Shown here: in pieces, positions 19,275 to 56,070 of the stretch
How the letters are laid out: each line of letters starts with the position of its first letter
Position numbering within the stretch: position 1 is the first letter of the stretch
NCBI GenBank assembly: GCA_017591395.1
Contig: WEDG01005593.1
Span: forward strand, 1-64,000
DNA: 64,000 nt
Source of the DNA: Schistocephalus solidus
Taxonomy: Eukaryota > Platyhelminthes > Cestoda > Diphyllobothriidea > Diphyllobothriidae
Reading direction: 5' to 3'
Notes under the pieces: model-generated
Told to the model about the DNA's origin: nothing
Seen by the model: the letters and a program-made list of their open reading frames with translations, nothing else
The model's database searches: none
Program-made: the position numbers and the translations under genes

Positions 19275-19354
19275 GCAGTAAAAACACTCCTGCGGTTAAA
19301 TCGGAGGCGGAGTTCGGCAAGCCGCCAATTTAAAAAAAATAGGAGAAAAACTGC
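19275..19354 (-). repeat. 3'-UTR hairpin of the LINE (copy 1 of 6)
   Basis: On the minus strand: GCAG, T-run, CTCCT, an inner stem that includes AAATTGGCGG facing CCGCCTCCGATTT, a GAACT-containing loop, AGGAG, T-rich run, CTGC. The same frame occurs at 35693, 40315, 43717, 45426 and 55940 with different but still paired inner stems. Confidence 0.85.
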
Positions 19355-19936
19355 TTCACTAAATAATTAATAGCTAGATGCAATGGGATAGTATTATGAT
19401 GTTGTTGGCAACGTTTGAGGGTTCGGAACGCTCCTTGTCGTGTGAGGGATTATATAACAGTCAGAGCTACTGTTTGTAACCACCAGTGGAGGTGAGAGAG
19501 GAGGAACTCATTGTGGACACCAGGGTGAAAACGAAGAGGGTACAGACGAGGTCATTAGATCATCATCGAGATGCGACCTTGCTGACTACATAGTCCACCA
19601 ATCAAAGAGGCAAAACCATCAGAACCCGCATTTGATCATCAACTGAACCTGGAGACCATCTTCGGGGTTGCAAAATCGGAGGAAGGTTTCAAGGTTGTCA
19701 AGAGTTGGCGATGCTAGTTTAAAAGAGTGGGGAAGAAAAAAGTGAATGCATAGATTGACTCTGCAGAGGATGATGGAAATATAATTAGAGACCAATATTA
19801 TATCAAGGGAGCTGCCTCAAATACCAGGAGGACCCTTTTCAAAATCCAAAAAGTTGCGAGTTTGGGAAGGAAACAGGCAATAAGGACTTTATATCTTCCG
19901 AAGTTAAATCTTTGCGTTATTTTCTTTTGAAAATAA

Positions 19937-21944
19937 CTAATGTAGACGACAACCTAATTTGCAGTGGAAGGTTATTCCATATGAAAGCATATTTGGAGGC
20001 AAAAACTGAGAACGGTTAGTTGTGGAGCTAAGGGGTGGTGAAATGATCATGGAGGAATTACGAGTGGCATAGGGTCGATCTACCGGTGTGAGAGCTTTAA
20101 TTCGTGGGAGCTTTTGGCTAGAGTTAACGCGAAAATGGAAGCTGAGACCGGCTTCGAGTCTTCTAACCAACAGAAATTTTATATTTGCTAACTGGCATCT
20201 ATCCGTATAAGAGATAATGTATCCAGGAAGAGAAAACAGTCTTCGAGTAAAAACCCTCTGAAATTTTTCAATCTTACTGCGGTCAGATGCGTTCATCAGC
20301 CCAAAGAGGGGACAGCAGTATTCTAGGATAGGAAGAACAAACATGCGGTACAGGTTTAACTTATTTCCGGAAGGAAGAAATTATGTGATATAAAACTACA
20401 TATCTGTGCAGCCGTTGCAGAAATTCAATCTGCATGAGGCGATAATGCTAGCTTATTCGTGTAACTTAGACCTTAGTCTCTTATAGTTGGTCGTTCTAAA
20501 AGTGTACTATTTTGAAATACTAGGGGTCCAGAAAGCTTGGCGGGGCCAAAACACATGAAACTACTCTTGGATGGAGAAACTTCCATCTTCCAACTAGAGC
20601 TCCAAAGTGAGAGCATAAGTAGATCAGTGTTGATTTTATCAACGCAACTATTGGCAGTGTCTTTAGAAATTGAATAAATGCACTTGAGATCGTCAGCGTA
20701 AACGAAAATTTGTGAATTTGTGAGTAAAAATGAAATTTCGTTTATTTACAGCATGAAGAGAAGGGAACCTAGAACCGTGCCTTGAAAAACGCCACTCGTG
20801 ATCGGCTGAGGCATCGAATAGCTATTACCTACTAAGACCTTCTGGCTGCAATTAGACAAGTAGGAACCAATGAAGTCAAGGAGATGAGGCCGGATGCTGA
20901 GGGCTTCCAGTTTCACCAGAAGACGTCTGTGCAGTACCTTGTCTAAGGCTTTGCTCAAGTCAAAGTAGATCACAACCACTGACTATTACTCATTACGAAT
21001 GGAAGTGACGAGGTTAAGAAAAGCTAAGTGACACACTTTGCATGATCTCCTAGGTAGAAAACCGTATTGAGAGTCGCTTATGAGCTTATTTTCTAAGCAA
21101 AAGTCGTGAATTTGATTAAAAATAATTGTTTCAATAAGTTTTGCAACAGCAGGGGTTTTGTGAACGCCTCGATAATCATTTACGTCCAAACGAGATCCCG
21201 ACTTGAAGACAGGAAGAATAATAGATGTCTTCCATGAGTCAGGAAAGAATCCGTTTAAAAGATACACTGAGAATACATGGCTAAGCAATCGGAGAAAGCT
21301 CGCCACTCTCTTAATAACTGAGTTTGGAATACCATCAGTCCCCGAAGTGTGCGAGTTTTTCAGACGCATTATTTGCTTACGAATTAGTTCTATGGAGAAA
21401 TCAATTGTGCTGATAACATTAAATGAGGATGCCTGAAACGTCGGAACCGGTTCAGATTCCATCGCAAGATGATTTACAAAGAATGCACTAAACAATTCTG
21501 CCTTGTCAGAGTCTTCGAGAACGAAGTTCTTAGCTTCATTTAGTAATGGAGGTATGTCATAACTCGTTTGGATCAAGATCGACGGTGGAACAAATAAGTA
21601 ACAGATTTTGCAGAGTTTGGCTCGCTGAGTGCGTAAGATTCCGTCTCTCTGTCACGTGCAAAACGAATCTTAGAGGCTAATTCAAAAATCTCTGCAATCC
21701 TCAGATGTTCAGATAACGAACTAGTATATTGATCTTTTAATTGCTTCCTCAATTTCTTTAGTCTTGGCAAAAGAAAGTGAGGGACGGTGGATTCTGAAGT
21801 GTAGGGCTTGACAATTTTGGCTGGCACAAATTCCAGGATGTTATTTGAAACGAGTTGTATGAAGTCAGAAGGACATGCTGCATGTTTCATGAAGGAGAGA
21901 TGCTGCCAGTTCAATAAGTCCAAATAGTTGTTAATTAAGCTCAT
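19937..21944 (-). pseudogene. LINE reverse transcriptase (broken into four frames)
   Basis: The pieces 21944-21573, 21576-20986, 20979-20746 and 20344-19937 on the minus strand are consecutive parts of one polymerase. They include SGTDGIPNSVIK, SDSQYGFLPRRSC, YFDLSKALDKVLH, SGVFQGTVLGSLLF and YADDLK (the last in the gap near 20700), then a thumb region with PILEYCCPLFG. In-frame stops and frameshifts separate them. The polymerase would copy its own RNA at the nicked target. It is not functional as it stands. Confidence 0.87.
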
Positions 21945-21949
21945 ATCTG

Positions 21950-22928
21950 CGAGGTCAAAAGCATGGTAGGTACGAACGGCGCTAGCCTTTTTCGATGAGA
22001 CAATTGGTAAGCAACAGTGAATTAATGTATGGTCACTTTGGAAGAGACCCTGCTTAAAATCAACGAAGAGGGGAGCAATGTCGTTTGTGAAAATCAGGTC
22101 TAAAATATGCTTGTCTCTCGTTGAAGAACGGACAAGCTGGGACCAATTTGAAAAATTAATGGTATCTAGGAAAGGCTGAAATCTGGGTGAACAAAAGTTT
22201 GAAATTCAGTCAATTTCAGGAAAATTAAAATCCCCAGCGATTATTTTAATTTTAAAATTGGACTCCGAAACCAATTTAAAAATTTCACAAAGTTTTGCAT
22301 CATCATCGGATGATGAATTAGGTGGGTTGTAAATACATCCAAGAATAGCCTTTTGCTGGGGCGACAGGATAATGGATGCGAAGCAGTAATTACTACAGAA
22401 TGACGTAACGTCGAGATCATATGGGAAGTGCTTAAATGGAGCTTTAATATAGAGAAGACAACCACCACCACGCTTACAAGTGCGGTCTTGACGGTAGAGA
22501 TCATACTGGTCTATGACAAGCAAAGAGTCGGAAATTAATGGTTGGGTCCAAGATTCAGGCATTAACTCGAAAGCAATGGCTCTCAGTTGAGCCATCTTAT
22601 TTATAACAGATCTAGCATTAAGTAATATGGCATCTAGGGTAGTTCGAGTATACAAACTAGGGTTATCGTTATTTATAATAAAAAAATTTGGAGGTGGGTA
22701 ATTAAGTTGGAAGTTATTGTGGCTTGGAAAGTAATTGCCAACTGCGTCAGAACGATTGGTATATGGAACGTCATTGACAAAAGGCTGAGAGGGATATATA
22801 AAAGGTGTAGGAATAAAACATTCCGGTATTGAAAAACCGTAGGGGTTATGACCGGGATATGCCTGTTGGTATTTAAAACGGAATGACGGGAAGTAAGATG
22901 GAATATAGAGGCTGTTGGGAGAGGGCAA
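21950..22928 (-). pseudogene. LINE endonuclease domain (broken)
   Basis: The frame 22928-22206 carries a Pro/Tyr/Phe-rich leader, then ILLNARSVINK, a shortened TE(S)W region, RGGGCLLYIK, GCIYNPPNSS and AGDFNFPEID. It stops at a TGA where family members have Trp. The domain resumes past the stop and continues to SDHTLIHC near 22030. These are the conserved blocks of LINE apurinic-type endonucleases, which nick target DNA to prime reverse transcription. This copy is inactivated by the nonsense change and by a small deletion between the LRAIAFE and ESW blocks. Confidence 0.85.
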
Positions 22929-26700: not shown

Positions 26701-28007
26701 TAACTGATATTTAAGCATTTAATATATGGTAGTAGAAAATACCTGCAAGATACAAGGAATGAAACTCCCGCTAAGTATACGATAAAATTAATCGACGAGT
26801 AAACATAACTTTACCCGTTATTGCAAATTCAAGCGCACAGCTACTTCCTATCGCAAAAATAGATGGAAGATTCAACGTCGGTATTCTAAATGCTTGCATC
26901 GCACGGATGCACATTTACTCACTATGGTTTGTCTAAATATTCATTCCGAACGCAATTCCTATACTTTTCTCCAAGCAAATAAGTCGTTGCCTTGCTATTA
27001 TCTGTGATAATTCTGTATGCTGGTAAGATGCCTTTATTTTTTACCATAAATTGGCTGTTAACAGTGTCATTTGAAATTGGTTTCAGATTTCAATTCTGTT
27101 GGGCTTAATAAGTTTAAGTCACTTCCTTAGTGTAGATGACACGTTGGTTCGAAATAAGTCATGAGCGGATTGCCTATTCTCCAATGTTGGGAGTTATTTA
27201 CATTGAACATAACGATTCTGTAGCTTTCAAGATATTAATATACTTTGATTTATTCTATGTACCAGGGTTATTCCGTACGAAAGTAGAAGCTTCAACGTTT
27301 ACCTTCTTCCAAAATTTATGCCGTCGGGATGCTGTTTGAATATGTTCTCAATCATGGAAGGCGAAGTCACAACAAAAGTACAGTCGATACATGCTTCTTA
27401 CAAGTCGGACTGCTGTATATTATTGCCACCTCATCCGTTTATTTAAGAATATTTAGAAAATGCATCTGTATAGAATTTTAAGAGGTATGGCGAAGACAGA
27501 TGCTTACGATTTATCTGCGTGGAAAATTTCGACACCGCAGTTGGGAGTCGAACCTGCGCAGGAAACATGTGTAGAAACCTCTAGGCAGGAAAGCGACACC
27601 TCGAAGCGTTTGGACATATTTGCACGGAAGGTTAACAAATATTGAAAAGAAACAGAAAATGATGGCAAAACAGATATTCTGTTCTTAGTTATCCTGACAA
27701 GCGGGCAAAAAGCCTGATAAGATTGATGATTCTCATCTACAAGGACGTAATGTATATGGGGTTTTCGATTAGTAGTCCTTTGCTTCCAAAAGATTTGGGC
27801 TTTTTTCAGAGGACTCTAGTGCCCGGCGTTCCGCTGCTATGTTCTAATTTGATTCTATTTTTTGAACTAGGTCATTAATTTTCCTAATTCATTTGAGTGT
27901 AGATAAATAACTAACTGAGGGATCCTGAAGTTGTTTTTTTTTGAGTTTTTTAGCCTCTTGGAAAGGAAGTTAGGAATTTTTTACTACATATCCGAGGATC
28001 TGTCATC
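23733..28007. other. Unassigned sequence, 4.3 kb
   Basis: No gene is recognised. The most protein-like frame is minus 24076-23840 (78 codons, starting MSGKAWRRRKIPVDFAQ), with basic residues first and a charged middle. It matches no family I know and could be chance or an exon. A tRNA B-box-like GGTTCGACTCCC on the minus strand near 27541-27556 lacks a matching A box and clover-leaf. Nothing else stands out. Confidence 0.45.
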
Positions 28008-28270
28008 TATCAGTATCATTATCAGTATTTTTGAGGGAGATATAGGTGAGTCACCTTTGAATTCCCTTTTCGTCCACGCGAGTTGTGGTATTCAAAAAAT
28101 AGTATCTCGATATGTTGGCGAGGCCGACATAGTGTAACATAGTTGAAAAAGAGCAAACAGTTAAAAAAAATCCCGGTGATATTTAGGAGAAAAAACGTGT
28201 TGTTCTTTGGGAGAGGGGGGGTCCAACGGTGGGCATTGCGCAGGTTACATGAATCAGCCAGATTATCCCT
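28008..28270 (-). mobile_element. 5'-truncated 3' end of a CR1-like LINE
   Basis: On the minus strand this ends with a short hairpin (AGGT-gactc-ACCT, 28044-28056), TCCCTCAA and a degenerate TACTGA/TGATAC tail at 28008-28030. A second, diverged copy of the same 3' UTR lies at 53501-53755, sharing GAGCA(A/G)ACAGT and GTGATATTTAGGA. No coding sequence remains. Confidence 0.75.
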
Positions 28271-28524
28271 TGCTGATTCGAGAGTCCGTTGAGGGATTTC
28301 AAAGGCGGAAATATATGCCCAGATCATCCTCGGTCCATTACGGTTAAAACCAAGGGAGAACGTTCATAAACCTCATGGAAGACGGCCGCCAGGTTCAGCT
28401 ATTGCGAACACTCACGGCGTAACCAAGGTGTGCAAATAATTAAGCAGCGAAGACCTCGAGGATCCCAGCTGGGGAATTATGGGAGAGTGCAAGACCTCAA
28501 ACAAAAATAACAAACAAAGAAATG
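28271..28524. other. Unassigned spacer between LINE ends
   Basis: I see no recognisable feature. It may be more of the upstream LINE 3' UTR or older host sequence. Confidence 0.4.
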
Positions 28525-30530
28525 TTCAGTTCAGTTCAGTTCAGTGTATTTGAGGAAAATAGGCTTACGCCTTTGAAATCCCTATTTGTTACATAAAAGT
28601 AGCAAGAATAAGAAGCAAATTAAAGGAAGTAACAGTCAAGTGAATGCAGGCAGGTTTACGTGGTACACTGATATTGTTAATGTTAAGTAGTCACATAGTC
28701 TTCATGGTACTGTAACATGTGTATGTCAAGCCGATGTTTGAATGTATACACAGACTGGGACATAACAATCGCCTCAGGTAGGTTATTCCACGGTTCCACG
28801 ACACGGTTGGTGAAAAAATACTTCCTCACATCCAATCTTACTTGGGGCACACTTAGTTTGAATGGATGACCTCGGAGATTTTTCGTAGTGGCAAGTTGGA
28901 AAAAAAGTCATCACATAGGAGGGCGCAATCCATGCCACGCACGATACGGAAGGTTTGAATCAAGTCTCCGCGCAACTGCCTATAACTCAGAGGATAGAGC
29001 TTAAGGTTATTTAGACGAATCTCATATGGCAGTTCAGCTTGACCTCTTACTAATTTTGTGGCTCGCCGCTGCACCCTTTCGAGCATGTTGTAGTCCTGTT
29101 GGGTCCACGGTCGCCAGGCTTGGATCGCATATTCAAGATGTGGCCTTACAAACGTACCAAAGACTTTAGAAAAGCAGTCTTCATCGAAAACTTTAAATGC
29201 CCGCTTGATAGCGTACAGTATTGAATTGGCGGATTTAGCTGCCTTGGAACATTGCGTAGAAGGCTTCAGGTTGTCTTTCATCCAAACTCCAAGATCCTTC
29301 TGTGTGTGTGCTTCTCGGAGTGGCAAACCGTTCAAATAGTAGGGTCGCATATCAGTGACCTGATTTCGATTTCCCAGACGTAGCAGGGTGCATTTGTTTG
29401 AGTTGAAGGACAAGAGCCATTTGCGGGACCACTCGTCCAATCGACGAAGATTTTCTTGGAAATTGTCTGCATCAGCAGCATTGTGGATAACTTTCCAGAT
29501 TTTTATATCGTCCGCAAACATAGCAAAGTTACAGTCCAATTCCTGTACACAATCATTAATGAACAAGAGAAATAGGATCGGTCCGAGCACTGAACCTTGT
29601 GGGACTCCACTCTTGATGGCTGTGCGCTTTGATCGCGATCCGCCTACGCAGACCACTTGGGAACGACCGACGAGAAAATTCTTGATCCACGTAAGAAGTT
29701 TGCCGCCAATACCGTACATTCTCAACTTGTAAAGGAGACGCTGGTGTGGAACACTATCGAAGGCCTTCTGGAAATCAATGTAGGCCACATGCACAGTGTC
29801 TTTTGCATCGAGTGCTTTTGTCCAGCTTTGCATCGTATAAAGTAAGTTCGTAACACACGATCTTCCCCTACGAAAGCCGTATTGTGCAGTCGATAAGAGG
29901 TTACGGGTTTCTAAATAAATCATCAATTCCTTTTTGACAACCTTCTCCATAACCTTGCAAGAGATTGAGGTCAGGCTGACAGGCCTGTAATTTGTAGCAA
30001 ATGCACGACTACCACTTTTGTGAAGCGGTGCGATGTGGGCTGTTTTCCAGTCGGTAGGAAGAATTCCCGTATCGAACGATTTCTGGCACAGCAACGATAG
30101 CGGTTTCGCCAGCTCTCGAGCAAGTTCGAGGAGTAGCTTTGCTGGAATCTCGTCGGGGCCAGGGGATTTGCATGCCTTCAGACTTTTTAGTTCTTCAAAG
30201 ACCGCCGCTTCTTGAAAGAGCATATCCTGAATAAGTGGCACTCCTGTAGTCTCGTAACTTGATGGAATAAAAACAGCTTCTCTAGTGAAAACCGACTGAA
30301 AGAACTGGGAAAAGTGTTCAGCTTTGTTTTTATTTTCTGATATCTCGAAACTGTCATCGTTTCTCATAACAGGAATCGGGTTCCTGTTACGTGTGGTTTT
30401 TCTTACATAGCTGTAGAGTAATTTTGGATTGTGAACTGCTCTCTGGAGCAAATCCCTCTCGTAATCCCGTCGGCTTTGGAATATCAAGCTTTAACCTTGT
30501 TCCTTTGAGTTTTGTACTTACATATAGCTA
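28525..30530 (-). mobile_element. 5'-truncated CR1-like LINE with long intact RT frame
   Basis: Minus strand. The 3' end carries a (CAGTT)n tail (28525-28545 on plus), a hairpin AGGC-gtaa-GCCT (28561-28572) and TTTTCCTCAA. The element starts abruptly near 30530, at a point equal to about 36545 in the longer copy, so ORF1 and the endonuclease are absent. It abuts the 3' end of another LINE copy at 30531. Confidence 0.9.
28853..30487 (-). CDS. LINE reverse transcriptase, 544 residues
   Basis: This is the longest open frame in the window. Blocks in order: SPGPDEIPAKLL (about residue 110), NYRPVSLTSI (about 166), QYGFRRGRSC (about 202), YIDFQKAFDSVPH (about 235), SGVPQGSVLGPILF (about 293) and MFADDIKIWK with the catalytic FADD motif (about 323). 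A thumb/C-terminal region with FVRPHLEYAIQAWRPWT follows. All polymerase motifs are intact. The frame shifts near an A7 run at 28900-28906: the C-terminal family block (ATTKNLRGHPFKL and a PWNNLP motif) continues in another frame down to about 28700. One homopolymer change would explain the early stop. Translation of a 5'-truncated copy is doubtful, so this is a recent insertion fossil rather than an expressed gene. Confidence 0.9.
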   Translation of the reverse strand: MIFQSRRDYERDLLQRAVHNPKLLYSYVRKTTRNRNPIPVMRNDDSFEISENKNKAEHFSQFFQSVFTREAVFIPSSYETTGVPLIQDMLFQEAAVFEELKSLKACKSPGPDEIPAKLLLELARELAKPLSLLCQKSFDTGILPTDWKTAHIAPLHKSGSRAFATNYRPVSLTSISCKVMEKVVKKELMIYLETRNLLSTAQYGFRRGRSCVTNLLYTMQSWTKALDAKDTVHVAYIDFQKAFDSVPHQRLLYKLRMYGIGGKLLTWIKNFLVGRSQVVCVGGSRSKRTAIKSGVPQGSVLGPILFLLFINDCVQELDCNFAMFADDIKIWKVIHNAADADNFQENLRRLDEWSRKWLLSFNSNKCTLLRLGNRNQVTDMRPYYLNGLPLREAHTQKDLGVWMKDNLKPSTQCSKAAKSANSILYAIKRAFKVFDEDCFSKVFGTFVRPHLEYAIQAWRPWTQQDYNMLERVQRRATKLVRGQAELPYEIRLNNLKLYPLSYRQLRGDLIQTFRIVRGMDCALLCDDFFSNLPLRKISEVIHSN

Positions 30531-35517: not shown

Positions 35518-35811
35518 TTCAGAATTTCATAATTTATATTTGGTTAGCACCGGCAAGGCACTTTCTAAGCAAACATTAGTAACGAAATAAAGTTATGGAA
35601 ATTTGTGCAGATAAAATGTACAAATACATAACTTGTCCTGCTATGTCAACAGTTAGCGATGTTTTAAAATTAATGATGAACTAGAAAAATAGGCAGTGAA
35701 AAAACTCCTACCATAAAAATTGGGGCAGAGTTCAATAAGCCTTCATTTTTTAATAGAAGGTAGGAGAAAAAAACTGCTAAGTAAAAAATGGTCAGGTGGT
35801 AGAGTAGCATT
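35518..35811 (-). mobile_element. Nested LINE 3'-end insertion (hairpin copy 2 of 6)
   Basis: The related LINE at 30531-32006 reads uninterrupted across this point (GTCGATATAGACTGCGTGC near 31655). Here about 294 bp intervene between CGATATA and TGCGTGCACC. The insert, on the minus strand, carries the GCAG/T-run/CTCCT hairpin (35777-35693) and ends AACCAAATATAAATT. It is homologous to the insert at 43290-43983. The original GAC at the site is gone and no clean target-site duplication is visible. Confidence 0.82.
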
Positions 35812-39179: not shown

Positions 39180-39183
39180 AAAG

Positions 39184-39194: not shown

Positions 39195-39226
39195 TTTTTC
39201 TATCATTACGCAGCAAATCACTTTCT

Positions 39227-39993
39227 ATGACCGACACTGAAATTAACATAGACTTTCTTGACATCAACACCCTCTCTTTCAAATTGCCCTAATTTATTTC
39301 GAGCAACCCCCGCGTATGGTTTAGGCAGACCGAGGCCATCTTCTCGACACGCCGTATCTCCAGTGAATGCAGGCGTTATTCATACGTAGTGCAATCACTT
39401 CCCTTCTATGTTGCTGTTGATTTTGAGGATCTCCTTGATCCGATTTCTGATGAGGAGCCATACATGCGGTTGAAGGACTCTGTAATTTAGTGTGTGGCCA
39501 AGTCGGCAATCACATGCTACATGAGCTTTTCACGCAGGTTGAACTCGGTGACCAAATGCCTTACCAACTAATGTGACACATGCTTTCTTTGCTTGCTGGT
39601 CGTCTTATGGATGATGCAAGTTTCAGAGAGATCTGGCTTGATAAATTTCCCCTTCCCATGCAGCAGGTATTGACTATGTTCGACACGTTCACCTCATTAG
39701 AGAAACTAACCATTCATGCAGATCGAATCATGAAATGCTTCCCTGGTGATACCGCATGTTCTAGTCATAAACAGAAATCGGTCTCCACGTCAGGATCCGA
39801 TAATTTTGGCACTTTTGCTCATGAAAGCACTCTAAAGCCAGAACGTGACACTCCATATGTGGAATTGCCACCGTGCTGTTGCATCTTTTGACGGGCCGCA
39901 CCATCATCAGGCCATTTGCAAGCGCCAAATAGCGTGCGCAGCAGTGACTATGAAGACTTAAAGGACACATTACGCCTCTTATGCACGCAAGTC
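39227..39993 (+). pseudogene. Gypsy gag (broken)
   Basis: The frame starting at ATG 39227 has one early stop (39293). It then reads SSNPRVWFRQTEAIF, RYSYVVQSLP, VDFEDLLDPISDEEPY. After another stop it continues with ELFTQVELGDQMPYQL and RHMLS-type LSLLAGRLMD, then FREIWLDKFPLPMQQVL. This is the capsid-region layout of flatworm CsRn1-like Gag proteins. The zinc-finger part resumes after the LINE insert, at about 40695. Confidence 0.8.
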
Positions 39994-40598
39994 GATTTTG
40001 CAACCCTGACAATAATCTCTCGGTTCAGTTGATGATCGGTGCGGGTTCTGATGGTTTGACCTCTTTGTTGGTGGACTATGCAGTCAGCAAGGTCGCATCT
40101 CGATGATGATCTCGTGACCTCTACTGTCCCCTCTTCATTTTGACCCTGTTGTTCACGAGGAGTTACTCCTCTCTCACCTCCACTGGTGGTTATAAACAGT
40201 AGCTCTGAATGCTATATTTTCTCTCACCCGACAAGGAGCGTTGCAAACCCTCATACGTTGTCAGCAACATCACAATACTAACCCATTGCATCTAGCTATT
40301 AATTTTTTAGTGAAGCAGTTTTTTTCTCCTTGTTTTTTTAAATTGGAGGCTCACCGAACTACACCTCCAATTTAACCGTAGGAGTTTTTTACTGCGTACT
40401 TTTCTAGTTCACCGTATGTGCCAAATATTTTTACTGTTGTTCTGAATCGGATATGCTTACCATACTACTCATTTCTGCTATTTGTATGGATGCTCAAATA
40501 GTGTAGCAACTATCCACTTTGTATAAATTTAAACTACGATACTTAGTTTGTAATGATGGGGCCCTCTGAGCCTTAAATAAACAATTTATTTATTTATT
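39994..40598 (+). mobile_element. Nested LINE 3'-UTR insertion (605 bp, hairpin copy 3 of 6)
   Basis: AAGTC at 39989-39993 and 40599-40603 flank the insert as a target-site duplication. The insert matches the 3' UTR of the LINE at 19058-23130 (its plus-strand coordinates about 19058-19665) from CGATTTTGCAA to the TTTATTTATTA tail. It contains the hairpin at 40315-40395 and the terminal GGCCC-tct-GAGCC element. No coding sequence is present, so it is a 5'-truncated integration. Confidence 0.9.
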
Positions 40599-41107: not shown

Positions 41108-41164
41108 CTCATTGATATCGCAACCAAACGTTTCGCTGTTGGTACCGTCACCTCTTAACATTCG

Positions 41165-42540: not shown

Positions 42541-44430
42541 TGCATTATCCACACCGGACATCAACACCCTGTCATCCAAATTCGACCTGACGAAGCTTGC
42601 AGACCTCCAACAAGAAGACGATTCCATTCCTAACCTGCGTTCATCTAATAATCTGCAGCTCCAAGATGCACCACTTCCAGCATCACCAGATACGATTTTA
42701 TGCGACTGGTCCAAGGCACTCCCTGACCTGCTGTTCCACTGTTCTACCGTAAAGTAGTGTTTGACAATTTTCACTCTCTGTCACATCCCGGCATTCACGC
42801 TGGTCGCTAAAAAATTGCTACTCGCTTTTTCTAGCACTGCAATTTGGACTAGGAAATGTCTAGGGTGCCAGAAAAAAAGTTCATCGCCATACCTTTTGCC
42901 CACCGAGCACATTTTCCGTTCCGCACGTTCGATTCCATCACGTCTACTTAAACTTAGTTGGGCCGTTACCACCTTCACATGGGCACACACATATTCTCAT
43001 AGCAGTCGAACGTTTCACGCGATGGCCAATTGCAATTCCGATACCAGATACCTCAGCAGAAAATATCACCATGGTCTTCCTGAACCACTGGATTGCCCAT
43101 TTTGGTGTGCCAGCCACCAGTGTCACTGACCGTGAAAGCCAAATTTCAATCTAGTCTCTTCCGTGAGTTCACTAAACTGCTCAGGTTCACGCACATCATG
43201 ACCACAGCATATCTTCTTGCTTCCAACGGCCTTGTAGAACGCCTGTACCGTCAACTCAAGACAGCACTGATGTTTTACTCAGTCGAACTAGTCTATCTAC
43301 ATTCAAGGGTAGACTGTAACTCTATCTTAACACTGATTATATTAACCTTTTATTTTCCTCATATTTTTCGAGCAGCTTTCTCCGTGACGCGGAGAAAGGA
43401 CCATCAGGGATTTAAGTGACCTTATTGGAAACTATTTTTTCTCTACCTCGAGTTCCCCAGGAACCATGACGTCTCCTTATACCCCCATTTATTCAAAAGA
43501 TGAGGTCATTCGGACGTACACAGTCTAAAATTCTCCCGTTTCATTGGACCCTTAACAGCATCAAAATTCAATTCTGGATCCTAAGATGCTGAGGCCTCAA
43601 GTTCACTCATGCCTTTCGCAAGATTTTGTTTCGTGCGCCTAAGTGATCAGGAACGAACAATATCGGCGTTTCATTATCTAATTCTGAAATGCTACTGAAG
43701 TTTTAGCCTAATCTTAGCAGTTTTTTCCCCCATCCTCTATTCGAAAATAAAGGCCTTTTGAACTCTGCCTCTATTTTAAAAGAAGAGGTTTTTTCACTAT
43801 CTATTTTCTAATTCACACTTAATTTCAAAACATCGCTACCTATTGCCCTAACAAGACAGGTTCTGCCTACATTATTAAATATTTTTACATTTTATCTGCA
43901 CACTGTCATAATTTTATTTCTTTACTAATGTTTGTTTTGAAAGTGCATTTCCGGAGCCAACCAAATATAAATTCTAAATTGTAAACTGCGTGGAGTGACA
44001 ACCTAACACTAGTACTTTCGGGTATTCGATCAGCTGTCAAGGAGAACATTCAAAGCACTGCGGCTGAACTTGTAAATGGTACACCTCTTCACCTGCCGGG
44101 CGAACTTTTTCAGTCCTCCACTGTAAGCACGAGCATCTCAAAGATTTGCTTCCAACAATGGAAACAACGCATGTCTCAAATGCGCCCAAGTCCAACTAGC
44201 CTGACACCCAAACACGTGTTTGTGCAAGACGACCTCAAATCGGCTCCATTCGTTTTCGTTCGGCACGATGCAGTTCGCAAGCCTCTTTGTTACCCTGAAG
44301 ATGGCCTTTACAAGGTTCTTCAACGGATGAACAAGTATTACATCATTCATTACACTAAAAAGACGGACAGAGACTCCATCAACAGGCTTAAGCCAACCTA
44401 CCTTGAGTGCTTCCTGCCGCCCGTTGTTCC
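42541..44430 (+). pseudogene. Gypsy integrase (broken, split by a LINE insert)
   Basis: A zinc-binding region with HPGI and CLGCQ (about 42785-42880) is followed by the catalytic core. The first acidic position reads LNLVGPL (Asn for Asp, about 42950), then TDRESQ (about 43125) and NGLVERLYRQLK (43235-43265, catalytic Glu). After the 43290-43983 insert it resumes with WSDNL, GIRSAVKEN and LHLPGELF (about 43991-44110). A GPY/F-type C-terminal module runs from HVFVQDD to INRLKPTYLE (44212-44406). The substituted catalytic residue and frame breaks show loss of function. Confidence 0.83.
43290..43983 (+). mobile_element. Nested LINE 3'-end insertion (694 bp, hairpin copy 4 of 6)
   Basis: AACT at 43286-43289 and 43984-43987 flank the insert. 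It contains a short inverted repeat CTTTCTCCG/CGGAGAAAG (43376-43398), the shared hairpin (43717-43800) and an end reading AACCAAATATAAATTCT. The last 290 bp are homologous to the insert at 35518-35811. No polymerase coding is recognisable. Confidence 0.85.
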
Positions 44431-44570
44431 ATTCAATCCCCCGCACCATCACCACCCAATCCACCCACTTCAGTTCCTCCCACTCAATCTTCACACTCGG
44501 CCACCCAACCCACCAATTTTGCTACTCATTTTTCACCACAATGCATTTTATCTCATTCTGGTAGACATAT

Positions 44571-45554
44571 ATCATATTCTAGTAGTCTTAATCTGTCGGA
44601 GCACTGCGCCCTGATTGTCTCTAAAGCACGCCAAACCACTGGGTTTATTCTCAGAAATTTTAAAACCCTCAATATTAGGACCAGCATTTATAAAAAATAT
44701 GTCAGACCTAGTCTGGAATACTGCTCGTTTCTATTTAGCCTTCTGCACGCGAGTGAACGGAGGAAGATAGAATCAGTCCAGCACTTCTTTACTAAAAGAC
44801 TTATTACTTCAGAGCACAGAAACCTGTCCTACCAACAACGCTGTGAGCTTACAAGCCTCGACCCGTTGTGGCTTCGTAGATTACAGAAGGGACTATTTTT
44901 ACTGTTCAAGCTTTTTAAACGGTTTTTACCTTTAACCCCTTACATCCCTGAGACAGCTCAACCACTGTCGGCACACCAATCATAGAGATGTATTCTTATT
45001 TCTTCCTTTGGCACGCAACGTTAAATACCGTCAGTTTTTTTCGGTAAACGCTATAGCAATCTGGAATAAACTACCCAGAAGTATTAAAATTCAGCAAAAC
45101 TATCCTTTGTTTACGAGAGCTGTAACTATTTTTCTACATTCAGGACACCTTCCACGAATTTTGGGTGCTGATTCTCTGGAAGCTCTCTTCCGTTCAGATG
45201 GCGTCCACGGACTCTGAATCCTATGCCGGACTTCATGCTGAAGGCAATATTGCTGACTCTGCAGTCCGTAATCGGGTTATTCCTCAGTCAACAGCTAGCA
45301 GCCGCTCGCCGGCATACTTGCTGCTAGTACAGAAGACCAGATCCACAACACCGAAAGGAGAAGTACTACACCGTGCACCTGTGTCAACACTTCCCTGTCC
45401 TAAACTTTAATCTGTTCAACAAGCTGCAGTTTTTTCTCCTGAAAAATACTTTAAAGAACGATCAGGAGTTTTTTTCACTGTCAGCTTGACCCCCTACTGT
45501 ATATATCCCTTTTGACCTTGCCTGTAACCTGGCAATAAATAAATAAATAAATAA
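44571..45554 (+). mobile_element. Nested LINE insertion with RT C-terminus (984 bp, hairpin copy 5 of 6)
   Basis: ATAT at 44567-44570 and 45555-45558 flank it, and the Gypsy C-terminal frame is continuous once it is removed. It encodes EHCALIVSKARQTTGF, the thumb block RPSLEYCSFLF and QQRCELTSLDPLWLRRLQKG, then NAIAIWNKLPRSIK (45040-45090) across one frame change. A 3' UTR with the hairpin (45426-45480) and an (AAAT)n tail follow. A sister copy is at 54420-56070. Confidence 0.9.
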
Positions 45555-45654
45555 ATATCCATTTTCCCACCAATCTGAAGGATTTTTTCGTGTAATTTTT
45601 TTGCATTTTTTTATCGAGCGTTTTTTTGTACATCAAACGCTCTGGTGGGGGAGT

Positions 45655-48763: not shown

Positions 48764-48840
48764 AATATCCAGCAAAAATCTCCATGTGGAAGAAAAGAAC
48801 TAAAAATCTTCAGAAATCGAGGCAAGGAAACAAGATTAAA

Positions 48841-49876
48841 ATGATGTACACAAATGTGCAGAGTCTATTGAACAAAATGGATGAAATTAAACTGGTCGTG
48901 GACCATTTACAAACCTGACTTCATAGCTCTAACTGAAACATGGTTAAATGAACAAATCGCAGACACAGAAGTCCGAATAGACGGTTTTCAGCTTATCCGC
49001 ATGGATAGAAACGGACGTAGGGGTGGTGGAATCGCAATGTTTATACGAGAAGGCATTGACTTCATTCCGGATGTGCCCTTGCTAAATAGGATCTCGTCTT
49101 GCGAAATACTTTGTTGTAAACTGAAAGTCCCAAACCAACCAGACCTCCATATTGCCGTGGTATATCGACCCCCAGGACAGCGAACGGACACGGACGAAGC
49201 ACTCATCACAGAGGTAAAGCAAATCTGCCGTAGCAAAAATTTATTAATACTTGGAGATTTCAACGCTCCCGATATCGATTGGGTGTCAATGTACTGCTCG
49301 CGATCGGAAAATTCATTCGAACAGAAATTACTTCAGTTGGTAAATGACGAGTTTCTTACCCAACATGTCACAATGAAGACGCGGTTCCGAAATGGGCAGC
49401 AGTCAAGCTGTTTGGATCTAATCATTAGTAGAGACGACAATTGCATCCTTGCATTAAGTTCTTACGTGCCGCTTGGACGAAGTGATCATTGTGTTCTTGC
49501 TTGGGAGTACAGTCATTTTTCTGTACCCAAACGTCGTGCAGTTAGGCAGAGAAATGTATGGAAAGGGGATTATCCCAAAATGAAAGAATTACTGAATGGG
49601 ATAGACTGGAGCCCTGCACATGTACCTGACCCTAATGCTGCCTGGTTCTTCATTAGTAAATTGATTCACCAATTGGTAGAGAAATTCTGCCCACTTAAAA
49701 GGCAATCATGCGTCTCCCGACCCGAGTGGGTGACATCGGAAATAAAAAGGAATCTCAAGAAGAAAAGAAGACTGTGGAGAACATATGCCAGATATCAACA
49801 ACCCGAACATTTTTCCGCTTTTAAGAAACAGCGAAATCGGTGTCGGAATCTTCTGAGAAAAAAGATCAGCCTTTGA
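48841..49876 (+). pseudogene. LINE endonuclease domain, nearly intact
   Basis: An ATG at 48841 opens YTNVQSLLNKMDEIK, which shifts frame near 48900. The frame ending at 49876 (331 codons from the internal ATG 48881) then holds ALTETWLN, RRGGGIAMFI, VYRPPG, LGDFNAPDIDW and GRSDHCVLAWEYSHF. These are all the catalytic blocks (E in TETW, D/N in GDFN, D/H in SDH). A linker rich in Lys/Arg leads toward the RT. A single indel near 48900 is the only damage in the domain. Confidence 0.87.
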
Positions 49877-49879
49877 GTC

Positions 49880-51658
49880 AGAAATAGTCAAAGACATACC
49901 AAGAAATTCGAAAAGGTTTTTTGCTTACGTTAATAAGGCAAAACGAAATCGCGACTGCATTCCTTGTCTTAAAGACAATCAGGGAAACAGGTTAACTGAT
50001 AACTCTGATAAGACCTGCCTCTTATCCAATTTCTTTATGTCCGTGTATACCGAGGAACCATTTTTGACGAGGATGAATACTACAGTACTGCCACATCTAC
50101 AAACAAAATAAGCACGGTGTCGTTCCCAATGGACACAGTAAGAAAAAAACTCTGAAACAGCTACAGCCCACTAAATCACCTGGCCCAGATGGTATATCCG
50201 CAAAAGTTCTCAATGAACTCACAGAACAGCTGGCCTCTCCGCTCTCAAGATATTTGAAAGTTCGATGGAGGCGGGGGCTCTGCCTACCGAGTGGAAGATA
50301 GCCAACATAACCCCCATCTATAAAGGCGGAGAGGACATCACCAAACAGTTTCCGACCAGTCAGCCTCACAAGTATCTGTTGCAAAATGATGGAGAAGATA
50401 ATCAAAACGGAACTGATGAGGCATCTTGAAGAGAATAACTTGCTTAGTTCATATCAACATGGATTTCGAAGTGGTCGATCCTGCCTCACAAACTTGCTCA
50501 CATCCATGGAAAGTTGGACAAAATCATTAGAAATGGGTTTGTCAGTCGATGCAGTCTACATTGACTTTAGCAAAGCCTTGACAGGGTTCCACACAAACGT
50601 CTGATCTTTAAGCTCCGTCAAATGGGTGTGACTGGCAACCTACTCAAATGGTTGGCCGACTTTCTCTTAGACAGGCGCCAGCGTGTTTGTATCGGAGACA
50701 CCAAGTCTCACTGGGAAACCGTTCACAGTGGAGTTCCGCAGGGCAGCGTTCTGGGTCCCATTTTGTTTCTGATATACGTAAACGACTGCCTGGATTGTCT
50801 GACATGCGAGAAGGTAATGTTCGCTGACGATTTGAAGTTATGGAACTCGATTGAAAAACCGGAGGATGCGCGAAAATTACAACAAAATTTAGATCGCTTG
50901 CAAACATGGTGTGATGAGTGGCTGCTGAACCTTAATCTTAACAAATGCCAAATAATCCGACTGCGGTCTAGTTCCAGAAGGCTGATTGAGTTTGAATACC
51001 AGTACTCCATCAGTGGTCACCAACTCCAGGAGGAAAACATTCTAAAGGACTTGGGTATATGGATAACACCAACTCTCAAACCATCGTCGCACTGTGCGAA
51101 TATCGCAAAGAAAGCTATGTGTATCTTAGGCGCAATCAGGAGATCCTTCGTTAATTTTGACGGAGAGCTTTTTGGGCGCGTGTTTGGAACATTTATCCGG
51201 CCGGTGTTGGAATATTGCGTTCAGGCGTGGCGCCCTTGGACGAAACATGACTACGCTCTGCTGGAGAAAGTTCAACGGAGGGCAACGAAACTAGTCAGCG
51301 GATTGGAATGCCTACCCTATGAGGGTGGCCTAGAAAGACTTAAAATTTTTCCTCTCTCTTATAGGCAATACAGAGGGGATATGATCTTAGTCTTCAAACT
51401 GGTCAGAGGAGTTGATTGTGCTCTTCAGATGGCCAACTTTTTGAATTGGCAAACATGACAAGTCTCCGAGGTCACCAATACAAACTGAAAAGAAATCACG
51501 CCAAACTTGAAGTTCGGGCCAACTTCTTTTCCCAACGGGTGATTGACGAATGGAACAAACTGCCAGCCTCAGTTGTTCAGGCTGAAAGCGTTGAAAAGTT
51601 TAAAAGAAGACTTGATGCATTTTTACTTGATGAACATATAATTAGTCGACAGCAATGA
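49880..51658 (+). pseudogene. LINE reverse transcriptase (broken)
   Basis: The pieces in several frames are SPGPDGIS-type block (about 50175), ALPTEWKIANITPIYKGG (50275-50330), SYQHGFRSGRSCLTN and VYIDFSKAL (50386-50604). They continue with SGVPQGSVLGPILFLIYVND, MFADDLKLW and FIRPVLEYCVQAWRPWT (50622-51458), then LANMTSLRGHQYKLKR and WNKLPASVV (51416-51658). The polymerase core with FADD is intact in one 278-codon frame. The fingers region is damaged. Confidence 0.87.
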
Positions 51659-51782
51659 TTGATATACTAAAACGACTATCGCCATGTAACATTTGCTTGT
51701 TTTGCTAGCATCTATCTGTAAATAGGGTTTTCAAAGGCTCTGCCTATCTCCCTTATATATACTGAATTATACTGAATTAAGA

Positions 51783-52728
51783 TAACTTCAATAAACCGAT
51801 AAATATCTGACGCCACCAATTACAGGATCAACATCATGTTATAAACAAACAATTTTTGCATATCGCATAAACACAATAAATGCATAAACGCACCATACAA
51901 AATAAAAAAATAAATAAAAATATTTAATCCGTTCCTTTCTTATCAAAGCCATCAGTTGACCTAGCAGCCACTAAAAATAATTTCAGCAACAAATATTGTA
52001 ATAATCGAACAAACTTCCAATAATAGTAATTTTCTATTTTTATTTTCTTATCATAACCATAAGTTTAACTTTCTGACACTAAAGTACTACCATAGCTTCA
52101 ATTAACCTATAGAGATCTGATTACACCAATTCCATGATCAACACAAGGTTACAAACAAGCAACTTTTTATTTTACATATCGTATAAACACAATAAATGTA
52201 CAAAGGTTACATAATCATAAATATTTAATATCTTCTTTCCTTATCCGATCACAGACATCAGTTGAGCTATCAGACACTAAAAATACTTTCAGTAACAAAT
52301 ATTTACATAACTGCATAAACGTCCCATGATAATAAATTTCCGTTTTCATTACTTATAATAGCCATAATTTGACCTTTCTGATACTAAGCACAATTTCCTA
52401 TAAAATTACTACCATTTTTTAAATTTATTGAGGGAAATGGGCATGGGCCTTTGAGTATCCTAACTCCGATAAACCTATAGATATCTCAATATACAAATTC
52501 CACGATCAACACCAGGCTAGGAACAATTTTTTTATTTTGCAAATCATATAAACACAATAAATGTATAACGATACCATAATCATTAATATTTAATCTCTTC
52601 CTTCCCTATCCGATCACAGCCATCAGTTGACCTATCGGACATTAAAAATAATTTCAGTGATAAATATTGACATAAATTCAAAAACGTCCCATAATCATAA
52701 ATTTCCGTTTTTCTTCTCTTATCATAAA
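51783..52728. repeat. ~315-bp AT-rich tandem repeat, nearly 3 copies
   Basis: Unit starts can be set at about 51783, 52096 and 52461. The motifs (C/G)ATCAACA(C/T)(A/C)A, ATAAACACAATAAATG, ATATTTAAT, CATCAGTTGA and ACTAAAAATA recur in order. The spacing is 313 and 365 bp, the extra being a 46-bp LINE tail inserted in copy 2. Copies have diverged considerably. There are no ORFs of note. Confidence 0.85.
52415..52460 (-). mobile_element. Ultra-short (46-bp) LINE 3'-end insertion
   Basis: Between CTACCA and TAACTCC, where sister repeat units run straight on, lies a segment whose minus strand reads CAAAGGCCCATGCCC, ATTTCCCTCAATAAA and a short T/A tail. This is the last ~45 bases of the CR1-like 3' end seen in full at 32840-32893. 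Confidence 0.85.
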
Positions 52729-52840
52729 TAAATAAAAAAGAAAAAAAGGTTTATTGATTTGGCACTGCTTGGGTGCCGTGAGTTAAGCATTCTAATGCTT
52801 AATATAATTTAATCAATAAATACCAACATTCCTTCACTAA
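52726..52840 (-). mobile_element. LINE 3' tail fragment (third subfamily)
   Basis: On the minus strand GGCACCCAAGCAGTGCC-AAATCAATAAACC is followed by a T/A-rich tail. The hairpin plus AATAAACC arrangement is that of the element ending at 39055. Confidence 0.65.
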
Positions 52841-53500: not shown

Positions 53501-53755
53501 TTATTATCAATATCAATATATTTGAGGGTGATATAGGTGAGTTACCTTTGAATTTCCTTTTTGTACATGCGGGTTGTGGTATCTAAAAATAGAATCTCGG
53601 GATGTTGACAAGGCCAATTGATATGAGCCAACTAGAGGGAACATAATTAAAAAAGAGCAGACAGTGAAAAAATCTCCCAGTGATATTTAGGAAAATAACT
53701 GTCACTTTTGAGGGGTGTCAAACGGGGGCATCGTGGAGGTTACCTGGATCATCAC
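53501..53755 (-). mobile_element. 5'-truncated 3' end of a CR1-like LINE
   Basis: This is a diverged copy of 28008-28270: on the minus strand the hairpin AGGT-aactc-ACCT (53535-53547) is followed by ATATCACCCTCAA and a TATTGATA-type tail. Upstream UTR blocks (GTGATATTTAGGA, GAGCAGACAGT) match in order. Confidence 0.75.
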
Positions 53756-54009
53756 CGAAATGCGGAAGATGCAGGTTAAACAAACTTAAGCTAGGTATAA
53801 TTTCTCTTAATTAATATTTAAATTATATTATTATGGTTAAAAACTTTATAAAAAACCTTCATTGTGTTTAAGTGCCAGTCGCATAAATACAATAAAGAAT
53901 ATTGCGCGCACCTCTTCGGGGCCGAGCTTTACAGATGTTCTATGGACGTGCGTGGTTCTAGAACTTTCTATCAGGAACACGGGATTAGAACTTTCTACAC
54001 TAACTAATT

Positions 54010-54415
54010 GCTGAACCACAAGCCAGAAAGATGCGCTCGGAAGCACTCGGAGCTGAGTGGATGTAATGGACAATCGAATAGCCCGCGATCGACTCTACCC
54101 CAGTCGAATGAACACTCGAAAATCCATAAGTGGCAGACTAGTCTTGGCTCCAATTTTTTACAGAAAACATTAATTTCAATGCTATTAAAGTTAATTATTT
54201 TCATATTTTAATATAAATGTGCCTTGGAAGACAAATTTTCTTTACTTAAAACAATCTCCTAACTTCGCACACTCTTAACCAAACAAAAAAGCAAAACTTA
54301 ACCAACGTGGCAGCTGAAAGAAGGAGATTGTTTTAAGTTTTTTTCCTGTGTTCTAAGGAGATTGATGGTGCCTAAGAGGTGCTATATAAATAAATATATT
54401 ATATTATATGTGTTA
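54010..54415 (+). mobile_element. LINE C-terminal/3'-UTR fragment (third subfamily)
   Basis: The 3' part (54303-54415) matches 38944-39055: GGAG, T-rich run, TTTTTTCCTGTGTTC(T/A)AAGGA, GGTGCCTAAGAGGTGC and a short ATAAATAAATAT tail. The upstream portion with CCCAGTCGAATGAACACTC resembles the C-terminal coding of that element, but no frame survives. Confidence 0.6.
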
Positions 54416-56070
54416 CCTAATAGATAATAACCTACTTAATGCTGTTCAGTATGGGTTCCTCAAAATAAGATCATGTGACACCTGCCAGCTCTCTTTCTTT
54501 GATCATGTGCTACAAACTAGATACAGCGGTTTTGCACTTTACACCGTTTATTTCGATTTCCATTAGGCTTTTGATCATGTTGACCAGGATCCTCTCCAGC
54601 TGAAACTTTTCCTTCAGCATGGGTAGCAATATTCTGAACTTAATATCCTCCCATTTGGATGCTCGCACACAACAAGTTAAAATTTCCAATATTACTCCCA
54701 ATCCTACAAATTGAGGAGTGGAGTTATTCGGGGTAGCGTGCTTGGCCCGCTCATATTTTACCTTATTTTAAACGATGTTCCTAATTGTTTTCAGTATGAA
54801 AGGCCCTTTGCGTACCCTGACGATTGAAAAATTGCCTATTTATATAAACCGGCTGATCGCAACATCGTGCTTGAGCTCTTAAGGAATGATCTTCAGGCCT
54901 TTGCTCAGTGGTGTTGCACATATTGCCTTTCCCTTTCTTGGCACAAATGCTCCGTTATGGTTGTTGGTGACAACCATCAGCCCCAGCTAAGGATAAAAGG
55001 TCAGGATATAAATGTGCCTGGCATTATAAAGGATCTGGGCATATCTTATTCTTATGGTTTTAATATGTCAGAGCACTGCGCCCTGATAGTCTCGAAAGCA
55101 CGCCGAAGTACTAGGTTTATTATCAGCAATTTTAAAGCCATAAATCGTAGAACCAGCTTTTATGAAATATATGTCAGATGAAGTCCCGAATACTGCTCGT
55201 TTCTTTTTAGCCTGTTGCACGCTACTGAACGGAAGAAGAAAGAATCAGTTCAGCATTTCTTTACTAAGCCAGTTCTCTTTTCCAGTTTACCGAAAGCTCT
55301 CCTACCAAAAACGATGTGAGCTTACTAACCTCAACCCGTTGTGGCTTTGCAGATTACAGTAGGGACGATTTTTACAGTTTAAACTCATACACAGTCGTAC
55401 AGTAAACCTCCTTATTACTCTGAGTTAGCTCGATCGCTCTCGGCACACCAGTCATCGAGATGTCTTTTTATTTCTTGCTCTGGCATGCACAGATATATAC
55501 CGTCAGTTTTTTTCAATAAACGCCATAGCGATCTGGAATAAGCTGCCCAGGGGTATCAAAATGCAAAAAAGCTATAATTTGTTTAAGAGAGCTGTTTTCT
55601 TCATTCAGGATACCTCTCACGAATTTTTAGTGCCGACTCGGTTGAATCTCACTTCCGTTTTTCTGGCATTCGCGGACTCTAAATCCTGTACAAGGCTTCA
55701 TGCCGAGGGCAATATTGCTGGCTCTGCTGGAATGATGGGGCCCTCTGGGCCTTAAATATACAATTTATTTATTTATTTAGTCCGTTATTGGTTAATTCCT
55801 AAGTTGACAGCGAATAACCGTTCACCAACACATATGTAGCTAGTCAAAATACCAGATAAATAGCACTGAAGGGAGTACGACTACACCGTGCACTTCTGTC
55901 AACCCTTCCCCCTCCCGAACTGTAATCGTTCAATGAGCTGCAGTTTTTTCTCCTGAAAAACACTGGAAAGAACGATTAGGAAATTTTTTCATTGTCAGCT
56001 CAATCCCAATAATGCATATATCTTTTGACCTTTCCTGTAAACTGGCAAAATACGAATAAATAAAATAACG
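54416..56070 (+). mobile_element. Degenerate LINE with RT and hairpin 3' UTR (hairpin copy 6 of 6)
   Basis: Plus strand. NAVQYGFLK-RSC (about 54440-54480), SGVIRGSVLGPLIF (about 54717), a YPDD where YADD is expected (about 54815), the frame 54867-55181 with DLQAFAQWC, IIKDLGISYSYGFNMSEHCALIVSKARR, then LEYCSFLFSLLHA-type sequence and NAIAIWNKLP. The 3' UTR has the hairpin at 55940-55995 and an AATAAATAAAAT tail. It is a sister of 44571-45554 and extends further 5'. Many stops and the A-to-P change in the catalytic box mark it as dead. Confidence 0.85.
55730..55778 (+). mobile_element. Ultra-short (~49-bp) LINE 3'-end insertion
   Basis: The sister copy at 44571-45554 reads CTCTGCAGTCCGTAAT across this point. 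Here a segment AATGATGGGGCCCTCTGGGC ... ending in TTTATTTATTTA intervenes. It equals the last ~50 bases of the element whose 3' end is at 40598. Confidence 0.82.

Follow-up and report, generated by a model that had tools for sequence, protein, structure and literature searches.

Several tapeworm LINE families carry in their 3' UTRs a hairpin whose two U-runs face each other as an internal loop, and we interpret this hairpin as an ENE-type RNA stability element, a reading to which we give a probability of about 0.62. An internal U loop between two stems is the anatomy of an ENE (element for nuclear expression), which stabilizes an RNA by holding its poly(A) tail in a triple helix, and it is because the U-runs face each other that the form can be recognized as ENE-like. 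In the window (the whole stretch of Schistocephalus solidus DNA that was analyzed, 64,000 nucleotides) the hairpin lies on the sense strand of the LINEs, at a family-specific distance to the RT end and to the tail; it is present in thousands of copies in the genome and persists across divergent LINEs. The proposal of an earlier reading made from the letters alone (the sequence-only reading), namely that the LINE 3' UTRs contain a conserved RNA element, retained while the surrounding sequence changes, is supported. The features of the window, by family, are as follows.

19275..19354, minus strand: family A copy 1 U-loop (ENE-like) hairpin; the lower stem reaches 19272-19357
19057..19096, minus strand: family A copy 1 LINE 3' end, AATATA and (TTTA)n tail
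20374..22619, minus strand: family A LINE degenerate endonuclease/RT frame, upstream in sense of the hairpin (P0008 aa 11-347 and 362-771, 27-32% identity)
40315..40395, plus strand: family A copy 2 U-loop hairpin, 84% identical to copy 1 over 625 bp
40555..40598, plus strand: family A copy 2 3' end, AATAAA and (TTTA)n tail
35693..35777, minus strand: family B U-loop hairpin, upper stem CTCCTACC/GGTAGGAG
35518..35811, minus strand: family B insertion of about 290 bp, which splits the RT frame of another LINE
43717..43800, plus strand: family B copy 2 U-loop hairpin, decayed
45426..45481, plus strand: family C U-loop hairpin; the outer stem extends both sides as AAGCU/AGCUU
44488..45136, plus strand: family C LINE RT C-terminus remnant, ending 290 nt before the hairpin
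45518..45556, plus strand: family C terminal stem-loop (TTGCC..GGCAA), distinct from the U-loop hairpin, and tail of (AATA)n containing AATAAA
55940..55995, plus strand: family C copy 2 U-loop hairpin, decayed
56031..56068, plus strand: family C copy 2 3' end and A-rich tail
28156..28201, minus strand: family D copy 1 U-loop hairpin, damaged lower stem
28007..28058, minus strand: family D copy 1 3' end, small hairpin AGGTGACTCACCT and CTGATA-like tail repeats
53660..53703, minus strand: family D copy 2 U-loop hairpin, lower stem GACAGT/ACTGTC
53501..53549, minus strand: family D copy 2 3' end
28524..30490, minus strand: LINE E2 (contrast case), RT frame (Pfam RVT_1) and own 3' end, (ACTGA)n tail
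48805..51781, plus strand: LINE E (contrast case), endonuclease, RT and 3' end

The sequence-only reading had reported one frame at six sites (the hairpins of families A, B and C above). All six are located where it placed them, and their sequence agrees with its description in outline. Four of them fold as the U-loop hairpin at minimum energy, whereas the other two are decayed: at 43717 the lower stem is broken (GCAG versus CTAT) and no intact upper stem stands flush with the T-run, and at 55940 AGGAA replaces AGGAG. The two family D hairpins, 28156-28201 and 53660-53703 (both on the minus strand), are further sites beyond these six. The core common to five families reads CAGU, U-run, CUCCU ... 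RGGAG, U-run, (C)ACUG, and the lower stem adjoining the U-loop includes A-U pairs. The T-runs had been described as paired; folding instead puts them opposite each other, unpaired, as an internal loop, and RNAfold kept the U-runs in this loop in 4/5 copies folded with their flanks. It had also been held that the inner stems differ yet pair. The stems compared are not all equivalent, as AAATTGGAGG/CCTCCAATTT at 40315 forms a second stem inside the CTCCT stem, whereas CTCCTACC/GGTAGGAG at 35693 and CTCCTGA/TCAGGAG at 45426 are extensions of the CTCCT stem; pairing-preserving differences do exist, mainly in the outer lower stem, which that description did not include. GAAC in the loop is present at all six sites but absent from the family D and F copies inspected.

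The carriers were recognized as LINEs by an endonuclease/RT frame upstream in sense and short tail repeats at the 3' end. Pfam RVT_1 and Exo_endo_phos_2 are present on LINEs of the window, and the RT is nearest to those of Spirometra and Schistocephalus among the named matches. Across 31 loci, an RT match was found upstream in sense at 22, eight had no match and one had an antisense match only (two of these loci are the same place, some matches come from a neighboring LINE, and L014 was left out of the count). Where the RT match reaches the C-terminus, the hairpin follows after 267-294 nt in families C and F, 391-429 nt in D and 492-565 nt in A. A loose hexamer motif at the tail follows the hairpin after 50-59 nt in 15/17 copies of C and after 123-138 nt in 14/18 copies of D; the distance from the hairpin to the tail motif is 55 nt in 5/5 copies of F and 191-213 nt in the 8/12 copies of A where the motif matched. 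Hexamers of the AATATA type are short and lie in AT-rich sequence, so their presence alone carries little weight. The genomic tails consist of (TTTA)n, (ATT)n, CTGATA-like or 8-nt repeats and are A-rich only in C; clear poly(A) was not seen in the genomic copies inspected.

A blind scan of the window for a lower stem, U-run, GC-containing upper stem and U-run returned five sites, whereas 40 block-wise dinucleotide shuffles gave 0.35 on average and never more than 2; the reversed window was useless as a control because pairing survives reversal. Four of the five sites belong to the six of the sequence-only reading. No LINE 3' end was recognized around the fifth, 57626-57721 on the minus strand, which may be a chance match. 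In the 604-Mb genome, two exact patterns matched 2,227 and 597 copies, counts that leave out the lower-stem-free pattern TTTTTTCTCCTN{14,44}AGGAGTTTTTT and GCAGTTTTTTN{40,70}TTTTTTCACTGC, so that families F and B are uncounted; the reversed-pattern controls matched 0 copies. A control with an A-C mismatch at the fifth pair gave 12 matches versus 597 with A-U, a contrast that mainly mirrors family D and is not independent evidence. A pattern free of the upper stem (GCAGTTTTTTN{18,48}TTTTTTCACTGC) had 36 matches in the genome, nearly all of which resemble A, B, C or F by eye, with a doubtful case on C1256. Of these 36, 22 have a flush upper stem of at least 4 bp and 14 do not; allowing one offset changes these numbers to 26 and 10. 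A hairpin pattern had no match in viral contigs and bacterial genome contigs, and an RT search of the viral contigs showed no related locus. Rfam gave no match for the whole window at the gathering score, nor for 45380-45560 at E up to 5. This result counts against the ENE reading, as do the A-U pairs in the lower stem beside the U-loop, the matches in which the upper stem is missing, the genomic tails without clear poly(A), the shuffles that reach the covariation score (below) and LINEs E and E2, which are without the hairpin.

The sequence-only reading had suggested that the hairpin might be the signal at the 3' end recognized by the LINE reverse transcriptase, with eel UnaL2 as its example; UnaL2 and ZfL2 are stringent-type LINEs. 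Like the stem-loop of ZfL2-1, ZfL2-2 and UnaL2, the hairpin sits in a LINE 3' UTR, and stringent LINEs require a 3' stem-loop (PMC4176376, in its available part). However, those stem-loops lie in the 3' tail, adjoining its repeats, and are described as LINE-specific in the same part of PMC4176376, whereas the U-loop hairpin is found about 50-210 nt upstream of the LINE 3' end and has a core common to three lineages whose RTs are 26-39% identical. It is another, family-specific stem-loop that adjoins the tail: UUGCC/GGCAA in C, AUGCC/GGCAU in F and AGGUGACUCACCU in D (folded), and GGCCCUCUGGGCC in A (by eye). LINEs E and E2 likewise have a terminal stem-loop at the tail (by eye), and the U-loop hairpin was not seen in these two LINEs of the window. 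Because a separate small stem-loop adjoins the tail, reverse-transcriptase recognition is the less likely role; we do not favor it and regard it as quite improbable.

When the UTRs were compared (one or two copies per family), all matches between unrelated families overlapped the hairpin, and between A, C/F and D there was no UTR match off it; along the UTR, A is related to B and C to F. The outer stems differ between families and still pair: GAAGCAGU/ACUGCUUC in A, AAGCUGCAGU/ACUGuCAGCUU in C, GGGCGACAGU/ACUGUCuGCUC in D and AGGCGGCAGU/ACUGCCaGCCU in F. The joint outer pairs of these four families (one copy each) beat all 50,000 random four-flank draws, and the outer pairs of family B alone gave a P of 0.22. 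A covariance check had been recommended by the sequence-only reading; pairing is indeed kept in the differing outer stems, but the covariation is modest when judged by shuffles, since there is little variation in the core: the score was reached in 28/500 shuffles for 15 hairpins and in 21/500 for 21 lower stems. ACTG forms the 3' arm in 46 of the 50 rows of the hairpin comparison, having been preset by the search pattern for the D rows and L054-L056. In one A-like locus (L045) the arms do not fit, and this is probably a chance match.

Sequence similarity as an explanation of the pairing, which the sequence-only reading had set against its own proposal, explains most of the pairing, as most core pairs are invariant. 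The hairpin might accordingly be a stretch of 3' UTR with no function that LINEs inherited or exchanged and that was passively multiplied. That most of the pairing follows from similarity, and that A with B and C with F are related along their UTRs, would suit such a history. Against it, the two arms and the two U-runs persist where no other UTR match was found between A, C/F and D, and pairing is kept while the outer stems differ; we consider this the least probable of the explanations weighed here. U-runs are common protein sites, and the element could be structured but form no triple helix, its U-rich loop serving as the landing site of a protein (a stability, export or localization factor, or the LINE's own protein). 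Conservation and position suit any 3' UTR RNA element, and the genomic copies inspected show no clear poly(A), as this explanation would allow. A linear U-rich site, however, needs less than two kept, facing U-runs flanked by stems, and we think a protein landing site unlikely.

If the hairpin is an ENE, then in the LINE mRNA the U-runs would form the internal loop between the lower stem (CAGU/ACUG with family-specific pairs) and the upper stem (CUCCU/RGGAG), and about five A's of a downstream poly(A) tail would sit in the loop, where one U-run would pair with them and the other would hold them through Hoogsteen bonds. Since the genomic tails are mostly not A-rich, the A-strand would need to be added after transcription. 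We infer such polyadenylation, the triple helix and protection from decay: the triple helix would conceal the 3' end from deadenylases and leave more LINE RNA to be translated and reverse-transcribed. To start copying, the reverse transcriptase would use the separate terminal stem-loop and the short tail repeats, and we propose that this is why poly(A) is absent from genomic copies.

About 200 ENEs were reportedly described by Tycowski, Shu and Steitz in 2016 in transposons of plants and fungi, with which the tapeworm hairpin shares a U-rich internal loop in transposon RNA. To our knowledge, a transposon ENE occurs among animals in only one fish, and we found no ENE in LINEs or flatworms in the literature searched. 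As the available part of PMC12501189 has it, transposon ENEs come mostly from plants and fungi and are strongly associated with LTR retrotransposons. Evade/Copia93, an Arabidopsis LTR retrotransposon treated in that text, resembles the present case in having a stem-loop in which U-rich tracts form internal loops flanked by stems, and in the location of this stem-loop in the 3' UTR, upstream of a poly(A) tail (a tail presumed here). Its triplex melting depends on the U-runs and adjacent G-C pairs, and deletion of its ENE lowers RNA stability and mobility (PMC12501189, same part). Triplex and stabilization are demonstrated for Evade, whereas here they are predicted; moreover, Evade is a plant LTR element with four U-rich tracts, whereas the tapeworm LINEs have one facing pair of U-runs. 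The KSHV PAN element is named as an ENE in the portion of PMC12501189 available. KSHV PAN and MALAT1 (available part of PMC11411715) are non-coding RNAs, whereas the carriers here are LINEs, and in the MALAT1 triple helix the A-rich tract is supplied by the 3' end of that RNA itself.

We would more tentatively entertain the idea, which we hold at somewhat less than even odds, that several animal LINE lineages, though deeply diverged, have a poly(A)-clamping ENE in common. It would be a module whose retention or exchange does not follow the RT tree and which works beside a separate terminal stem-loop for the RT, so that the two hairpins of one 3' UTR would do two jobs, tail protection and copy priming. 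Tapeworms are reported to be without the canonical piRNA pathway (PMC6880638, in its available part), and RNA decay could therefore be an important transposon brake in these parasites. If the ENE reading is true, tail-protecting triple helices would extend to animal LINEs, and there would be a case of a LINE whose investment in RNA stability is separate from recognition by the reverse transcriptase. Whether polyadenylated RNA is made by LINEs whose tails are short repeats, and how poly(A) then escapes copying, also becomes testable.

Two kissing interactions of the loop, GAACT with a downstream CTAGTTC in A and B and GAACGAT with an upstream ATCGTTC in C, were considered and rejected: they were seen by eye at some of the six sites but only imperfectly at others, and the D and F copies inspected lack GAAC. 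The family B insertion at 35518..35811 (minus strand) is absent from the paralogue at 31656/31660 and terminates in two 8-nt repeats, ATTATGAA ATTCTGAA.

A reading of the sequence alone held that six retroelement 3' ends in the window share one hairpin (19275 and 40315, family A; 35693 and 43717, family B; 45426 and 55940, family C), and the sequence at each reads as it stated. RNAfold forms the hairpin at 19275, 40315, 35693 and 45426, but not at 43717 and 55940, where the stems are damaged. The two T-runs, which had been described as paired, are left unpaired in an internal loop in all four folded sites; we refer to this arrangement of lower stem, facing U-runs and upper stem as the U-loop hairpin. 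Two additional sites, of a further family, were found by reading LINE 3' UTRs by eye:

28156-28201, minus strand, family D hairpin
53660-53703, minus strand, family D hairpin

A structure-only scan of the window returned five sites, against a mean of 0.35 and a maximum of 2 in 40 shuffles, and four of them were already among the original six. The fifth, at 57626-57721 (minus strand), is a U-loop hairpin with a 9-bp upper and a 6-bp lower stem; no LINE 3' end was recognised around it, and it may be a chance occurrence.

The core is nearly constant in five families (CAGU/ACUG, U-runs of 5-9 and CUCCU/RGGAG), while the outer lower stem has a family-specific sequence with its pairing kept. Both sides of lower-stem pairs 5, 6, 7, 9 and 10, numbered outward from the loop, vary between families. 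Families C, F and B also lengthen the upper stem, with GA/UC, GAAUA/UAUUC and ACC/GGU respectively.

Tails and outer lower stems of the hairpin-bearing LINE families (lower-case letters, bulges)
Family A: tail (TTTA)n; stem GAAGCAGU/ACUGCUUC
Family B: tail of 8-nt repeats (window copies only)
Family C: tail (AATA)n; stem AAGCUGCAGU/ACUG-u-CAGCUU
Family D: tail of CTGATA-like repeats; stem GGGCGACAGU/ACUGUC-u-GCUC
Family F (absent from the window): tail (ATT)n; stem AGGCGGCAGU/ACUGCC-a-GCCU

With one copy per family and a null of random flanks drawn from the window and the fetched loci, outer-stem pairing gave P values of 0.024 (A), 0.006 (D), 0.024 (F), 0.006 (C) and 0.22 (B). The summed score of A, D, F and C lay above all 50,000 null draws, with the families not fully independent, because C and F are related (reverse transcriptases, RTs, 74% identical). 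The covariation proposed from the sequence proved modest: for 15 hairpins with the inner part cut out, 28 of 500 shuffles reached its score, and for the lower stems (n = 21, one damaged row excluded) 21 of 500 did. Since most core pairs are invariant, the main signal is sequence conservation.

Across the genome (603,688,359 bases in 8,019 contigs), the pattern GCAGTTTTTTNTCCTN{20,50}AGGAGTTTTTT matched at least 1,127 + 1,100 times and ACAGTTTTTTN{18,48}TTTTTTCACTGT at least 296 + 301 times; reversed-pattern controls gave 0 genome matches for both. Both are minimum counts: a copy with seven U's in front of CTCCT, for instance, escapes the first pattern. Although that pattern put no condition on the 3' lower arm, 26 of 27 copies among the matches listed have ACTG after the 3' T-run, either directly or one base away (the exception is locus L014).

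Of 31 oriented loci, 22 have an RT match upstream of the hairpin in the sense direction, a count in which L005 and L009 represent one place, L014 is left out and some matches belong to a neighbouring LINE; eight others have no RT match inside their short flanks, and one has an antisense match only. Where the match extends to the RT C-terminus, the hairpin follows it by 267-294 nt (C, F), 391-429 nt (D) or 492-565 nt (A). Downstream of the hairpin, 15 of 17 C copies carry a loose AATAAA-like tail motif 50-59 nt away (one of the remaining two has it at 88 nt, the other lacks it). In D, 14 of 18 copies (two duplicate places) have one of the hexamers AATAAA, ATTAAA and AATATA at a distance of 123-138 nt. 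A tail motif stands at 55 nt in all five F copies (one duplicate place) and at 191-213 nt in 8 of 12 A copies, those where the motif matched. The hexamers are no proof by themselves, because the sequence is AT-rich. Spacing to the RT end and to the tail is family-specific.

The RTs of A, C/F and D share 26-39% identity over the pieces compared, and that of D is nearer to the hairpin-less window LINEs E2 (52%; 65% over a shorter piece) and E (45%; 58%). In permissive blastn comparisons of 3' UTRs (E up to 0.5; one or two copies per family), all matches overlap the hairpin (e.g., D-F, 27 nt at 89%; A-D, 15/15), except within the related pairs C-F and A-B; the hairpin therefore outlives its surroundings. 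Its distribution is discordant with the RT tree, implying either loss in E and E2 or exchange of UTRs. We consider the U-loop hairpin very probably a real, conserved 3' UTR RNA element.

What the element does is best approached through two known systems. One is the ENE, an RNA stability element that grips the poly(A) tail in a triple helix. According to PMC12501189, the Arabidopsis LTR retrotransposon Evade carries an ENE in its 3' UTR. Triplex melting of this ENE requires the U-runs together with the G-C pairs next to them, and removing it reduces both RNA stability and copy number; the same paper places around 200 earlier ENEs mostly in plants and fungi, with a strong LTR retrotransposon association. 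The tapeworm hairpin has the same anatomy and also lies near the 3' end, whereas the poly(A) tail and triplex are what we infer here. Should reverse transcription begin at the tail repeats, genomic copies would be expected to lack poly(A), and this lack does not count as evidence. The other system is the 3' stem-loop of the LINEs ZfL2 and UnaL2, which LINE proteins recognise (PMC4176376). A second stem-loop, adjoining the tail, occupies that same place here: UUGCC/GGCAA in C and AUGCC/GGCAU in F, each with an 8-nt loop, and AGGUGACUCACCU in D (all by folding), and GGCCCUCUGGGCC in A (by eye). By eye, E and E2 have such a tail and a stem-loop of this kind, and neither eye nor the structure scan of the window found a U-loop hairpin in them. 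Because the tail stem-loop takes the recognition position, the U-loop hairpin most likely has a role other than recognition by the LINE protein. By its anatomy and 3' position, it is most likely an ENE (probability roughly 0.6). Full-text searches of open-licence literature listed no paper describing an ENE from a LINE or from a flatworm, and Rfam holds no family matching the hairpin; if it is an ENE, both the kind of carrier and the host group would be new.

LINE fragments, which we take to be CR1/L2-like, are abundant throughout the window. The best named relatives of the RT frame at 28856-30490 (minus strand) are from Spirometra, Sparganum and Schistocephalus (59-79% identity), and RT pieces of neighbouring LINEs at loci L007 and L008 match a Schistocephalus solidus entry with up to 99% identity, which places the window in a tapeworm of that group. 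A family A 3' end (55734-55779) lies upstream of the C hairpin at 55940, so that the insertion order is readable. The insertion at 35518-35811 lies inside an RT frame, with no clear target-site duplication, and the paralogue at 31656/31660 is empty. Upstream of the hairpin at 40315, 39200-39900 could, by eye, encode an LTR-element gag-like protein. Directly after the 3' end of E come three diverged direct repeats, each about 300 bp long (51782-52727). A tandem array spans 1-11500 (unit roughly 990 bp, some spacings about 745 bp), with a reference stretch in 12 copies, some 99-100% identical. A family D 3' end fragment (12930-13040) adjoins a tandem repeat at 13136-13794 (82-bp unit, 8 copies, 98%), and 17423-17759 holds imperfect palindromes of 60 and about 220 nt (83-84%).
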